64,000 nucleotides of DNA, taken from contig NZ_SMAH01000003.1 of assembly GCF_004342625.1 (NCBI RefSeq), positions 62,001 through 126,000 on the forward strand, read 5' to 3'. Under the pieces are notes generated by a model. That model made no database searches and was not told the DNA's origin. It worked only from the letters and a program-made list of their open reading frames with translations. Shown in pieces: positions 5,206-45,085 of the stretch (positions are counted from its first letter, which is position 1; each line of letters begins with the position of its first letter). This DNA comes from Tepidimonas ignava. GTDB lineage: Bacteria > Pseudomonadota > Gammaproteobacteria > Burkholderiales > Burkholderiaceae_C. Both the position numbers and the translations under genes were made by a program.

Positions 5206-5727
5206 ATGCGCCCCACCCTACCCTCCGACCTGACGGTGACGACCTTGCCCACGCCGTGGGGGCGGGCCCTGGCGGCCGCCAGCGCCCAGGGCCTGCACGC
5301 GCTGTGGCTGGGCGACGACGACGCGGCGTTGCTAACGTTGTGGCGCCGCGCCTGGGGTCACCCGGCGCCGCTGGGTGTGCTGCCCACCGCGTGGCAGGCG
5401 GTTTTGCGCGAGGTGCTGGCCCACCCGGGCACCCCGTGCCCGCTGCCGCTGGCACCCCAGGGCAGCCCCTTCCAGCAACGTGTCTGGGCGGCGCTGCACA
5501 CCATCGCGCCGGGCCAAACCCTCAGCTACGGGGCGCTGGCGGCGCGCCTGGGCATGCCCAACGCCGCACGCGCCGTGGCCAGCGCCTGCGCGCGCAACCC
5601 GTTGGCCGTCGTCATCCCCTGCCACCGCGTGGTGGGCGCCGACGGACGGCTGAGCGGCTACCGCTGGGGGTTGGCGCGCAAGCGCGCCCTGTTGCAGGCC
5701 GAAGCCGCCAGCGCCCGGCCCACCTAA
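5206..5727 (+). CDS. ogt: Methylated-DNA-[protein]-cysteine S-methyltransferase
   Basis: Suicide repair protein that moves the alkyl group from O6-alkylguanine (and O4-alkylthymine) to its own cysteine. The product is 173 residues, typical for the single-domain Ogt/MGMT form. The active-site motif VIPCHRV is present with the acceptor Cys at 139, and the helix-turn-helix segment (ALAARLGMPNAARAVASAC) precedes it. There is no Ada-type N-terminal domain, so induction by methylphosphotriester sensing is not expected from this protein. The ATG at 5206 is preferred over in-frame upstream codons because the fold starts here. It converges on clpA with a 73-base gap. Confidence 0.93.
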   Translation: MRPTLPSDLTVTTLPTPWGRALAAASAQGLHALWLGDDDAALLTLWRRAWGHPAPLGVLPTAWQAVLREVLAHPGTPCPLPLAPQGSPFQQRVWAALHTIAPGQTLSYGALAARLGMPNAARAVASACARNPLAVVIPCHRVVGADGRLSGYRWGLARKRALLQAEAASARPT

Positions 5728-38071: not shown

Positions 38072-39078
38072 ACGGTAGGGGTTGCGGTGGAAGTTGGGGC
38101 GCCGGCGTGGCTCGGAGGGCGGTCCGCGCGGGTGCGCCAACGCGCCCACCAGGGCGGCGGTGCCGGCGGGGCGGCTTCGTCTTCGTCCTCGCGCGCCAGC
38201 TCGCGCTGCAGCGCGTACACCGACTGCGGGCGCGACGCCGGATCCAGCATCATGCACCAGCGCACGGCTTCACGCAGGTTATCCGAATACACGCCCTGCA
38301 AGCGCGCCAGCGGCCCCAGCAGGCGCTCGCGCTGCTGGCGCGTGGGCGCATCCGGGGGCGGGTAGCCTACCATGCACGAGTACAGACACGCGCCGATGGC
38401 GTACAGGTCGGTCCACGGCCCCAGCGCGCCGTGCGGTCCGCGCTGGTACATCTCCGGCGCGGCAAAACCCGGTGTGTACATCGGGCGCACGTAGTCGCCC
38501 TCGTGCTGCAACGCTTCGCGCGCCGCGCCGAAGTCGATCAACACCGCGCGGTCGTCGTCGGTGATGAGGATGTTGGCCGGCTTGATGTCCAGATGCAGCA
38601 GCCCGTGCTGGTGCACGATGCGCAAGCCACGCAACACCTCGTCGAACAAGGCGCGGATCGTGCCTTCCTGCAGCACGTGGCGCAACTGGCGTTCGCGCGC
38701 CACGACGATGTAGTCCTGCAACGACGCGCCTTGCAGGTACTCCATCACCAGGTACACGGTGTCGTTGGCGTGGAAAAAATGCTGCACGCCCACCACGGCC
38801 GGGTGGGCGATTTGCGCCAGCGCGCGCGCCTCCTCAAAAAAGCCGCGCAGCCCCAAACGGTACAACGCCTGTTTGTCGGGCCGTACCTGCGGCAGCCGCT
38901 CGCCCGGGGCGCGCGTGCACAACGCCGTGGGCAGGTATTCCTTGATGGCCACGGGGGACCCGCTGGCGTCGCGCGCCAGGTACACCAACCCGAAGCCGCC
39001 GCTGGCCAGCACCCGCACGATACGGTAGCCGCCCACCAGCGTGTCGGCGGGCAACGGGGCCGGCCTGGTCTTTGACAT
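38068..39078 (-). CDS. Serine/threonine protein kinase
   Basis: Hanks-type kinase of 336 residues without a membrane segment. The glycine loop is GGFGLVYLA, the ATP lysine is in VAIKEYLP, and the catalytic loop reads [10 protein letters not shown] followed by IDFGAAR and a TPGFAAPE activation segment. HLD replaces the usual HRD, so activation-loop phosphorylation may not be needed in the normal way. The C-terminal 35 residues are Pro/Arg-rich. It is the first gene of the kinase-rph-rdgB-hemW unit. No PP2C-type phosphatase gene is present between it and yicC or elsewhere in the window. Targets are unknown. Confidence 0.9.
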
Positions 39079-39156
39079 AATCGCTCGATTCCCCGGTCAG
39101 GGCGCGCCGCACGGCCCTCACCTGCACCGGATCCCTGGTCTTGTCTTGCAACGCTC

Positions 39157-40053
39157 ATGGCAGTTTACAGCATGACCGGCTACGCGGCCCTGACGGGTGC
39201 CGTCGAGGCCGAATCCGGTACGGCAGCCGCCGCAGCGCTGCGCGTCGAAGTGCGCGCCGTCAATGGCCGTTTTTTGGACCTGACGCTGCGCCTGCCCGAC
39301 GAGTTGCGCGCGGCTGAGCCGGCGCTGCGCGAGAGCGTGTCGGCGCGGGTGCGGCGCGGCAAGCTGGAGGTGCGCGTCAGCTTCGACGCCACCGACGGAA
39401 CCGCGGTGCGCGTGCCCAGCGCCGCCGAGTTGCAGCGCCTGGCCACGGCCCAGGAGCAGGTGCGCGCCTGGCTGCCCCAAGCCACCCCGTTGAGCGTGGC
39501 CGAAGTGCTGCAGTGGGCGCAGCGCGGCGCGAGCCTGCCACCGAACACAGCCGACGCGCTGCTGGCGCTGGTGCGGCGTGCGCTGGACGAGCTCCAGGCG
39601 GCGCGCGCCCGCGAGGGCGAGCGCCTGGCCTTGATGTTGCATGATCGCGTGCATCGGTTGCGCACCCTGGCGGCGCAGGCCGAACCGCTGGTGCCGCAAG
39701 CCGTGGCGCAGCAGCGCGAGCGCTACCTGCAACGCCTGCACGAAGCGCTGGCCGACGCGCGCGTCGATGCGGCCACGATGCAAGAACGTGCCCTGGCCGA
39801 AGCCGCCGCCTACGCGCTGCGCATCGATGTGGCCGAGGAACTGACCCGCCTGCGCTCGCACCTGGACGAGATCGAGCGGTTGCTGCACCAAGGGGGCGAA
39901 GTGGGCAAGCGGCTCGACTTTCTGATCCAGGAGCTGCACCGCGAGGCCAACACGCTGGGCTCCAAAGCCGCCAACCTGGAGCTGACGCGCCTGAGCGTGG
40001 ACATGAAGGTGCTGATCGAACAAATGCGCGAGCAGGTGCAAAACCTCGAGTGA
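39157..40053 (+). CDS. yicC: YicC family endoribonuclease-like protein
   Basis: Product of 298 residues starting [10 protein letters not shown], the typical YicC N-terminus, with the [18 protein letters not shown] segment, and the C-terminal domain containing [17 protein letters not shown] and [22 protein letters not shown]. YicC proteins have been linked to small-RNA turnover as endoribonucleases; that activity is inferred from the family. It is divergent from the protein kinase gene across 78 bases, and gmk follows directly, the common yicC-gmk order. Confidence 0.94.
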
Positions 40054-40061
40054 GTGTCGAC

Positions 40062-40691
40062 ATGCAGCAACCCGGCAACCTGTTCGTCATCGCCGCCCCC
40101 AGCGGGGCGGGCAAGTCCAGCCTGGTCAAAGCGCTGCTGGAGGTGGACGCCCAGCTCAAGCTGTCGATCTCACACACCACGCGCGCGCCACGCGGACAAG
40201 AGGTGCACGGGCGCGAGTACTACTTCGTCAGCGACGCCGAGTTCGATCGCATGATCGCCGAGGGCGCCTTCATCGAGTGGGCGCAGGTGCACGGACGGCG
40301 CTACGGCACCTCGCGCCAGGCCATCGAGGCGCGCGTCGCTGCCGGTGAGGACATCGTGCTGGAGATCGACTACCAAGGTGCGCTGCAAATCCGGCGCCAG
40401 TTCCCGGCGGCGGTGCTGATCTTCATTCTGCCCCCCAGTTGGGACGAACTGCGCGCGCGGCTGCAACGGCGCGGCGAAGACAGCCCCGACGTCATTGAGC
40501 TGCGGCTGCGCAACGCTGCGCAGGAAATGGCGCACGTCGACGCCTTCGACTTCGTTATAATCAACGAAGTCTTTGAGCGCGCGCTGTTCGATCTGAAAAC
40601 GATCACCCACTCGCAGCGTCTGCGCGTGGCCGCGCAGCGCCGCAGCCGCGCCGACGTGTTTGCCGCGCTCGGCCTCACCCCCAACCCTTGA
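40062..40691 (+). CDS. gmk: Guanylate kinase
   Basis: Converts GMP to GDP. The 209-residue product has the P-loop [10 protein letters not shown], then [19 protein letters not shown] and [11 protein letters not shown]. The ATG at 40062 gives the family start ([14 protein letters not shown]); a GTG at 40050 overlapping the yicC stop would add four residues. It forms a coupled yicC-gmk-rpoZ unit. GDP made here is also a precursor for the (p)ppGpp enzyme encoded downstream. Confidence 0.96.
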
Positions 40692-40712
40692 CCGCACCAT
40701 CCGGAGGTTTCC

Positions 40713-40916
40713 ATGGCACGCATCACCGTCGAAGATTGCCTGGAAAAAATCCCCAACCGCTTCCAACTCGTGCTGGCCGCCACCTACCGCGCCCGCATGC
40801 TCAGCCAGGGCCATGCGCCCAAGGTCGAGACGCGCAACAAGCCGGCCGTCACCGCGCTGCGCGAGATCGCGGCCGGCCTGGTCGGGCTGGAAATGCTGCG
40901 CAAGGTCCCGGTCTGA
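40713..40916 (+). CDS. rpoZ: DNA-directed RNA polymerase omega subunit
   Basis: Small subunit (67 residues) that helps assemble RNA polymerase and contributes to the ppGpp site. It starts [20 protein letters not shown] and continues with AATYRARML and [11 protein letters not shown], all family features. CGGAGG lies just upstream of the ATG. A strong terminator follows 24 bases after the stop. Confidence 0.97.
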
Positions 40917-40939
40917 CGGCCATCATGGCCATCGCCGCG

Positions 40940-40965
40940 AGGCACCCCCGTCGGGTGCCTTTTTT
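40940..40965 (+). terminator. Rho-independent terminator after rpoZ
   Basis: AGGCACCC and GGGTGCCT form an 8-bp stem with a five-base loop, followed by TTTTTT. It ends 15 bases before the start of the (p)ppGpp enzyme gene. Confidence 0.85.
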
Positions 40966-40968
40966 GTT

Positions 40969-40974
40969 TACAGT
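40969..40974 (+). promoter_or_regulatory. -10-like hexamer six bases before the (p)ppGpp enzyme start
   Basis: TACAGT lies between the T-run of the rpoZ terminator and the GTG at 40981, with six bases (ACGGGG) between. It would give a leaderless transcript and re-start transcription after the terminator. The -35 position falls in the terminator stem. Confidence 0.45.
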
Positions 40975-40980
40975 ACGGGG

Positions 40981-43266
<2,286 letters not shown>

Positions 43267-43284
43267 ACGCCCGACCGTGGGCGG

Positions 43285-43845
43285 TCAGGTGGGGGCCGGG
43301 TAGCTGACGCGCACCACCTCCAACGTTTGCACGCCGGCGGGCGTGTGCAAGCGCACCTCGTCCCCCTCGCGTGCCTTCAGCAGCGCTTGCGCCACCGGCG
43401 ACACCCAACTGATCTGCCCCTGGGCGCTGTCGGCCTCGTCGATGCCGAGGATCGTGACCGTTTCTTCACTGCCGTCGGGACGCGCGTAGGTGACGGTGGC
43501 CCCGAAAAAGACCTGATCCTTGCCGTGGTGCACGCTGGGGTCCACCACCTCGGCGATCTGCAGCCGTTTGGTCAAAAACCGAATGCGCCGGTCGATTTCG
43601 CGCAGGCGCTTTTTGCCATACAGGTAGTCGCCGTTTTCCGAGCGGTCGCCGTTGCTGGCCGCCCAGGCCACCGTCTCGACCACGCGCGGGCGTTCCTCGT
43701 CCAGCAGCCACTTGAGTTCGTCGCGCAGGCGCGCGTAGCCCTGCGGCGTGATGTAGTTCTTGCCGCCAGCCGGCAGACGCGGCTGCGCGGTCAGGTCTTC
43801 GTCCTCGTCGTCGCGATCGCTTTCGCGTGTGAATGCCTTGCTCAT
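43285..43845 (-). CDS. greB: Transcription elongation factor GreB
   Basis: Secondary-channel factor that stimulates transcript cleavage in backtracked RNA polymerase. The 186-residue product has the N-terminal coiled coil (YITPQGYARLRDELKWLL through RRIRFLTKRLQIAEVVDP) and the C-terminal FKBP-like domain (GATVTYARPDGSEETVTILG). The acidic tip residues lie in GDRSENGDYLYGKKRLREID, with the SENGDY motif typical of Gre factors. The KRL and YLYGKK pattern marks GreB. The ATG at 43845 is used; a GTG two codons upstream exists. The N-terminal 25 residues are acidic and unlike E. coli. Confidence 0.95.
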   Translation of the reverse strand: MSKAFTRESDRDDEDEDLTAQPRLPAGGKNYITPQGYARLRDELKWLLDEERPRVVETVAWAASNGDRSENGDYLYGKKRLREIDRRIRFLTKRLQIAEVVDPSVHHGKDQVFFGATVTYARPDGSEETVTILGIDEADSAQGQISWVSPVAQALLKAREGDEVRLHTPAGVQTLEVVRVSYPAPT

Positions 43846-43951
43846 GGTCACCCATGCAGTCGTTGGTCGGTCGCGCCACAGCGCTCACATCCCCCACACC
43901 CCCACGGTGCGGTTCCCCACCCGCTCGGTGCGCGGCGCGATCAGCACGCGT

Positions 43952-45085
43952 TCATGCCGTTGGCGATGGTGCCTGAACATCACGTCCAAGCACCTGCTCG
44001 ATCAACCGTGCGTAGATCCGGTTGGCTGCACGCATCTGGGGTCGCAGCGCCACCAAGCCGGCGTCCTCCACGTACTCGACGTCGTCGATGCTGGGTAGGG
44101 GGTCCCACAGTGCTTGGCCACCGGCCAGCAGCGGGGCAATGACGCGGTGCACGCGCGGCTCGCGCAGCTTGTCGGTGAGCTGGTCCAGGTGCGTGGCGCG
44201 ACTCTGGATGAGCCGCTCGCGCGCAGCCCAGTAGTGCGCCAGCGTCACGGGCAGCGCACGGTTGCGCCTCAGCTCTTTGTTTTCCCACGTGCATTCGTGC
44301 CCAAGCGCATTGACCAGCCACGGCTGCCCCTGGGTGTCTTGCCACAGCTCGGGCCAGATGGCCTCGTCAAACACCTGGCCCGTGGCCTCGGTGTGCTGCC
44401 GCCACAGCGCCACCGTCTCCTCACGGCTGAAGTTGCCCAGCCGCAGCGACTTGGCCTTGATGTTGAAGGCGCTGCCGCCCGTGATGATGTCGCCGCCGCC
44501 GCTGTGGATGCGGTAGTCGCGCACATCGCGCACGCCGCACAGCACCACCGTTTGCGGAAACGCCTGCGGGCGCTGCGCGTAGCCGGCGCGGATTTGCCTC
44601 AGCAGAGAGATGAGCGTGTCGCCCACCAGCGCGTCCACTTCATCCAGCAGCAGCACCGCCGGGTGGGCGGGGTCCAGTTGGCTCCAGTGCGCCAGCAGGC
44701 GTGAGAGTTTTTCTTCGGCTTCAACGGTGCGCCCCTCGCCACGCAGCAGCCAGTCGTCCAACCGGGTGTCACCCAGGTACACCTGGGCGCTGCGGGCAAT
44801 GGCGCTGCAAGCGGCCGTGATGCCGCGCTCAACGTTGCCGCGTGCGGCCTGCGCGGTTTCGATGTTGGCGTACAGTGCCCGGTACCGGCCTTGGGCGTTG
44901 AGGTGCGCCATCAGCGCCAGCAGCACGGTGGTTTTGCCCGTTTGGCGCGGCGCGTGCAGCACGAAGTAGCGCTGCGCTTCGATCAGCGCTTCGATCTCTT
45001 GTACATCCACCCGCGCCAGCGGGTCGAGCAGGTAGTGCAGCTCCGGCTTGCTGGGGCCGGCGGTGTTGAACTGCTTGTCGGCCAT
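43952..45085 (-). CDS. AAA-like domain ATPase of unknown function
   Basis: Product of 377 residues with Walker A APRQTGKTTVLLALM (about 46-60) and Walker B AVLLLDEVDAL, followed by a sensor-like VVLCGVRDVRDYR. The C-terminal 200 residues (HTEATGQVFDEAIWP, LVNALGHE) resemble the AAA-like domain family found as isolated genes in many bacteria, some of which carry a nuclease domain; none is visible here. Role unknown. It is alone between greB and recC and is not part of the conserved blocks on either side, so it may have been gained. TACACT lies six bases before the ATG and there is no Shine-Dalgarno. Confidence 0.85.
   Translation of the reverse strand: MADKQFNTAGPSKPELHYLLDPLARVDVQEIEALIEAQRYFVLHAPRQTGKTTVLLALMAHLNAQGRYRALYANIETAQAARGNVERGITAACSAIARSAQVYLGDTRLDDWLLRGEGRTVEAEEKLSRLLAHWSQLDPAHPAVLLLDEVDALVGDTLISLLRQIRAGYAQRPQAFPQTVVLCGVRDVRDYRIHSGGGDIITGGSAFNIKAKSLRLGNFSREETVALWRQHTEATGQVFDEAIWPELWQDTQGQPWLVNALGHECTWENKELRRNRALPVTLAHYWAARERLIQSRATHLDQLTDKLREPRVHRVIAPLLAGGQALWDPLPSIDDVEYVEDAGLVALRPQMRAANRIYARLIEQVLGRDVQAPSPTA

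Follow-up and report, generated by a model that had tools for sequence, protein, structure and literature searches.

A terminator behind rpoZ and a separate promoter probably give spoT a leaderless mRNA in Tepidimonas and much of its family

In Tepidimonas ignava, the gene of a RelA/SpoT-family (p)ppGpp enzyme (spoT/rsh) stands behind gmk and rpoZ, and the best explanation of the region in between is an intrinsic terminator followed by a promoter of its own that would give a leaderless spoT mRNA, a reading to which we assign a probability of about 0.86 from sequence comparisons. According to this model, transcription of gmk-rpoZ would end at the terminator (40939-40965), a separate polymerase would recognize a vegetative-type promoter in the extended -10 manner through the box TACAGT, 6 bases before the GTG start codon, transcription would begin at G40981 or no more than one or two bases away, and ribosomes would load on the leaderless message without a Shine-Dalgarno (SD) sequence. 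What the sequences show is a terminator-like hairpin, the box, its nearly constant distance from the start, the missing SD, and the retention of these features in the family members sampled but not in the other families sampled. That the main sigma factor reads the box is inferred, and so are the precise 5' end, how efficiently transcription terminates, and the translation of a leaderless mRNA from the GTG. Positions are those of the window, the whole stretch of 64,000 nucleotides that was analyzed, and the gene order is yicC-like, gmk, rpoZ, terminator, spoT/rsh, and then greB on the opposite strand:

39157-40053, a gene that we take to be yicC-like
40050-40691, gmk
40713-40916, forward strand, rpoZ (RNA polymerase omega; TIGR00690), the last gene upstream of the terminator
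40939-40961, forward strand, intrinsic terminator hairpin of 9 pairs with a loop of 5, overlapping the expected -35 position (from scan, fold, and genus conservation)
40960-40965, forward strand, T-run of the terminator (T6), ending 3 bases before the -10 box
40969-40974, forward strand, TACAGT, the -10 box (TAnAnT) of the putative spoT promoter
40975-40980, forward strand, G-rich stretch of 6 bases from box to start, with the predicted transcription start at or next to the G of the GTG
40981-40983, forward strand, GTG start codon and predicted 5' end of the mRNA, matching the ATG or GTG of relatives at the same distance from the box
40981-43266, forward strand, spoT/rsh, RelA/SpoT-family (p)ppGpp enzyme of 761 aa (TIGR00691)
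43285-43851, strand opposite to spoT, greB

In a profile search, the rpoZ product matched TIGR00690 with 65 bits (cut-off 23.6) and the spoT/rsh product matched TIGR00691 (spoT_relA) with 719 bits (cut-off 499), which makes the latter a long RSH of the RelA/SpoT family. The gene is present in all 11 Tepidimonas genomes, and the SpoT of T. aquatica (L006) has 98% of its residues in common with that of the window. At their other ends, spoT and greB converge with 18 bases between them (43267-43284), and a scan of 39000-44000 found no terminator-like site in this interval.

The initial annotation had placed a hairpin with a T6 tail behind rpoZ, and this was borne out: a G+C-rich hairpin with a 9-bp stem runs directly into a T-run, as in intrinsic terminators. 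For hairpin and tail together (40934-40969), the folding energy is -16.5 kcal/mol (z -3.03), a value that none of 200 shuffled sequences reached. Longer stretches were less outstanding (40917-40990, z -1.68, 11 of 200 shuffles as good); the fold of 40939-41040 had a z of -2.73, equaled by 2 of 200. The scan of 39000-44000 yielded 5 terminator-like sites, against 3.2 (sd 1.7) in shuffled sequences, a count that is unremarkable by itself, and the other four are stems of 5 pairs.

Conservation within the genus places the terminator beyond chance, because all 11 genomes keep it, the T6, the following G, and TTTACA are invariant in the 11 aligned rows, and the pairing of the stem is mostly retained while its sequence varies. 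Two double changes are clear: A-T instead of G-C at pair 4, shared by two close relatives within the genus, and T-A instead of C-G at pair 6, seen in one genome; changes at pairs 2 and 3 occur in a single genome, whose stem is in a shifted register, and pair 7 is broken in two genomes. Downstream of TTTACA, the 11 rows continue with a G-rich stretch and GTGAG; upstream of the hairpin their bases can barely be aligned. Across the genus, rpoZ stop and spoT start are 63-71 bases apart and the stem ends 2-14 bases (median 7) before the -10 box. In T. fonticaldi (L030, 2927-3015), 7 bases of the T-run between hairpin and box are duplicated (TTTTTTG twice), and the box-to-start spacing is unchanged. 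In the other genera of the family, a terminator was found in 59 of the 74 loci with a called box, its stem ending 11-349 bases (median 37) before the box; outside the family, 3 of 63 loci have one between rpoZ and spoT, the shuffled rates being 2.8% and 1.0%. Since 6 of 11 family loci without a called box also have a terminator, its presence alone does not prove a pairing with the box.

The distance of 15 bases from T-run to GTG, with TACAGT in between, was confirmed as first annotated. The first T of the box (40969) lies 12 bases before the start codon (40981), the approximate distance at which TANNNT stands in TA-led leaderless genes. No -35 box lies 16-18 bases before the -10 box, and a promoter scan requiring a -35 box found none in 39000-44000; the expected -35 position at a spacing of 17 bases (40946-40951) reads CCCCGT. 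The initial idea of a promoter embedded in the terminator is thus nearly right, as the -35 place does fall within the hairpin, although the -10 box lies 3 bases past the T-run. In the 2.7-Mb genome, a run of T5 within 1-12 bases of TAnAnT-N6-RTG occurs at this place only (two overlapping matches), and the backward pattern gave 0 matches. Among the genomes compared, only this tight abutment of T-run and -10 box appears peculiar to Tepidimonas, the box-to-start arrangement being widespread in the family.

Of the genomes with a match, the comparison covered 88 of 116 from the family outside the genus, 65 of 146 from other families of the order, and, for other orders, 28 of 108 from outside the family; L131-L135 (repeats or further family members) and L002 (a relA paralogue) were excluded from the counts. 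A TAnAnT box 6-7 bases before an in-frame start codon is found in all 11 Tepidimonas genomes (shuffled mean 0.02), in 68 of the 88 other family genera (0.86), and in 29 of 30 named records, which overlap with the genus (0.39). With a gap of 5-8 bases, the family count is 72 of 88 (shuffled mean 1.63), and with the relaxed box TAnnnT at 5-8 it is 78 of 88 (7.56); a first scan at gaps of 4-10 had found the box at 87 of 99 family loci, genus included, and in 30 of 30 named records, one of them at gap 10. The spacing is sharp: gap 6 occurs in 59 of the 88 genera and gap 7 in 9, other gaps below 15 in at most 5 each, and no out-of-frame start was found at gap 6-7 (0/88). The counts at gap 15 (11) and gap 18 (7) probably reflect a second start-like codon further in. 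Three of the ten loci that failed the relaxed test (L048, L057, and L099) have TAnAnT at gap 9, where 5 of the 88 family loci have it; the remaining ones are L104 and six loci (L121-L126) with lower SpoT identities than any other match in the family search. These ten failures count against the model. Some of the missed loci have a near-variant, for example TTACCATT or TAATTT, at about the same place.

In a box-anchored profile of 87 loci, where T-12, A-11, A-9, and T-7 are fixed by the rule, G is found at -14 in 82% and at -3 in 75%, the box base at -8 is off consensus (T or G, never A), and there is no conserved -35 column. A G at -14 is the pattern of extended -10 promoters. The model is weakened by the missing -35 box, by the off-consensus base at -8, and by the Tepidimonas rows, which are without the G at -14 that most of the family has. 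An SD-like stretch of 4 or more bases is present at 4 of the 87 spoT starts and absent from 83. As controls, the rpoZ starts of the family loci have such a stretch in 70 of 96 cases and a TAnAnT box at gap 5-9 in 0 of 96, and the gmk starts have a box in 2 of 49.

Misassignment of the start codon was considered and rejected, because relatives have their ATG where the window has its GTG, at a constant distance from the box; the GTG itself is kept in all 11 Tepidimonas genomes. In the family, the called start is the first in-frame ATG or GTG after rpoZ in 66 of 85 loci, the stretch from rpoZ to this start contains an in-frame stop in 60 of 85, and first codons such as MSV or MSAV recur in several genera. 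Internal in-frame stops (TGA, TAG, or TAA), which had been flagged in many rows of the family search, were also rejected for these loci, since the frame from the called start runs for at least 700 aa in 85 of the 86 fetched family loci that were checked; the exception, L042 (438 aa), is the same stretch as L031 and ends with its contig. Two labels deserve mention: L007, labeled Hydrogenophaga sp., agrees with L037 of Tepidimonas in the gap between rpoZ and spoT and is probably a mislabeled Tepidimonas, and L021, labeled Methylobacillus, agrees in this gap with L084, which belongs to the window's family.

The initial annotation had left two options, a leaderless message or regulated read-through from gmk-rpoZ; the comparison strongly supports the first, and for the second we found nothing in favor beyond gene adjacency. 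If spoT were expressed mainly by read-through, through attenuation or anti-termination, TACAGT would be incidental, and indeed the genes remain adjacent and in line, the gap is short in the genus, and rpoZ and spoT are co-transcribed in E. coli (PMC5927463) and P. aeruginosa (PMC5623667), as the initial annotation had said of many proteobacteria. However, the distance from box to start stays constant while the end of the hairpin shifts from 2-14 bases upstream of the box in the genus to 11-349 in the family, the read-through message would have no SD sequence at spoT in 83 of 87 loci, and no Rfam entry matched 40680-41100 at its gathering score, which makes this explanation highly unlikely. A stem that would sequester the start codon in a read-through RNA (GGGGGUGA with UCGCCCCC) was rejected, being by eye not present in all genomes of the genus. 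In folding comparisons, 77 of 87 loci have a less paired start region when the RNA is leaderless; we gave this no weight, as a longer RNA is more paired anyway and 4 of the 11 Tepidimonas rows are opposite or tied.

A real promoter could also start transcription a few bases away, giving a leader of 1-5 bases, or inside the gene, with translation from a later codon. Transcription starts can scatter by a base or two, the five loci with a box at gap 9 fit such a shift, and many relatives align with the window SpoT only from residue 36-40 onward. Against this, the spacing peaks sharply at 6, the MSV/MSAV-like first codons recur, and the upstream stops and first in-frame start codons support the called start in most loci, so that we consider a displaced start unlikely. 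Finally, the conserved TAnAnT block might be the site of another binding factor rather than a -10 box, for which the missing -35 conservation could be adduced; yet G at -14, T or G at -8, the spacing, and the contrast between families are independent evidence that fits an extended -10 promoter, and a spacing tied to the start codon is needless for a binding site. We give this last possibility hardly any credence, and a terminator followed by a leaderless promoter remains the preferred reading.

Outside the family, the signal disappears. TAnAnT at gap 6-7, and likewise at 5-8, was found in 0 of the 65 loci from other families of the order (shuffled mean 0.8 at gap 6-7), one locus having the box at gap 4, and the relaxed TAnnnT at gap 6-7 in 2 of 65 versus a shuffled mean of 2.9, hence no signal. 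In other orders of the class, 1 of 28 loci has TAnAnT at gap 5-8: L204, with TACACT 5 bases before an in-frame ATG at the spoT start, by chance or convergence. In family f7, TGATAAC stands 8 bases before the spoT ATG in 2 of 5 loci (L138 and L143), perhaps an independent leaderless start. On a FastTree tree of 121 SpoT rows of at least 600 aa, the leaderless trait needs 4 changes versus a shuffled mean of 27; the starred branches force only 2, many forks being weakly supported and some branches long. Because the family members L123 and L124 diverge before all carriers, it is simplest to assume that the trait was gained once within the family and lost a few times. Thus, part of the Burkholderiales seems to have replaced the rpoZ-spoT co-operon by a terminator and a leaderless promoter.

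We take Burkholderia cenocepacia and Cupriavidus metallidurans to belong to the same order as Tepidimonas. Leaderless mRNAs were measured in both (PMC4603805, PMC7563307), with transcriptional regulators over-represented among them: B. cenocepacia has TAnAAT as its -10 consensus, and its leaderless genes are immediately preceded by a TA-rich motif (PMC4603805), and in C. metallidurans, leaderless mRNAs (5' UTR under 5 nt) make up 4.67% of primary starts (PMC7563307). The words spot, relA, and rpoZ are absent from the main text of the former paper and rpoZ from that of the latter. More generally, a study of bacterial leaderless genes (Zheng et al. 2011, PMC3160421) places a TANNNT core about 12 bp ahead of the start codon. 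The spoT locus resembles their TA-led class in the position of the first T and in the lack of an SD sequence, but differs from that survey in being one orthologous locus, traced through 89 genera and associated with a terminator on its upstream side; the survey's main text has no match for spoT, Burkholderia, Acidovorax, or Betaproteobacteria. Hence spoT joins a known class; notable are the gene concerned, how deeply the arrangement is conserved, its link to a terminator, and the abutment in Tepidimonas. Among the best rows of several longer lists of literature matches, we found no paper on a leaderless spoT or on an rpoZ-terminator-spoT arrangement; a measured spoT start may already stand in the supplementary start-site tables of published maps, outside the literature search.

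Within the window itself, 5 of 40 genes from a rough gene call, spoT included, have a TAnAnT box 5-8 bases before some in-frame ATG or GTG, a count that allows several candidate starts per gene and has no shuffle control. The four others, at 5206, 24682 (minus strand), 45085 (minus strand), and 58159, have the box 5-6 bases before an in-frame ATG. Leaderless starts may thus be common in the T. ignava genome; a leaderless relA in the same genome was rejected, since by eye the stretch inspected has no such box near a start.

The E. coli locus (gmk, rpoZ, spoT, trmH, recG) shares the gmk-rpoZ-spoT order, but there rpoZ and spoT are separated by 18 bases, with a TTG start and hardly space for a terminator. 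Within the joint E. coli mRNA, the spoT part decays faster than the rpoZ part, a difference that the authors of that study attribute to RpoZ likely being needed in excess of SpoT (PMC5927463). A terminator with a separate promoter would serve the same end as this differential decay, and its likely purpose is to let an abundant polymerase subunit and a scarcer enzyme be dosed independently. GUG works poorly as the start codon of leaderless mRNA in E. coli, although some actinobacteria use it efficiently (PMC9031893). This speaks against the leaderless model, but the GTG may also hold spoT output low.

The move of spoT, perhaps once in a large clade, into this class of mRNA may have a further meaning. 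A review citing its own authors' preprint states that in E. coli (p)ppGpp not only inhibits canonical translation but may also activate that of leaderless mRNA (PMC9031893), and post-termination recycling of polymerase has been seen in single-molecule work (PMC6978380). It is conceivable, if doubtful, that spoT is thereby subject to a translational self-loop, with a possible second layer in Tepidimonas in which the terminating polymerase blocks the spoT promoter or restarts on it. If so, a high level of (p)ppGpp would favor the translation of the spoT mRNA, and the stringent response would act back on itself. The polymerase that releases the rpoZ RNA in Tepidimonas would halt on or next to the spoT -10 box and may block the promoter, or, if it retains sigma, may restart there, tying spoT output to rpoZ traffic without read-through. 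The terminator-promoter composite offers a compact natural system for studying polymerase interference or hand-off. For the family, spoT offers a conserved test gene for the behavior of leaderless mRNA in starvation, and the comparison indicates that much of this family has given up the genetic link between RNA polymerase omega and the (p)ppGpp enzyme known from E. coli and follows another expression logic.
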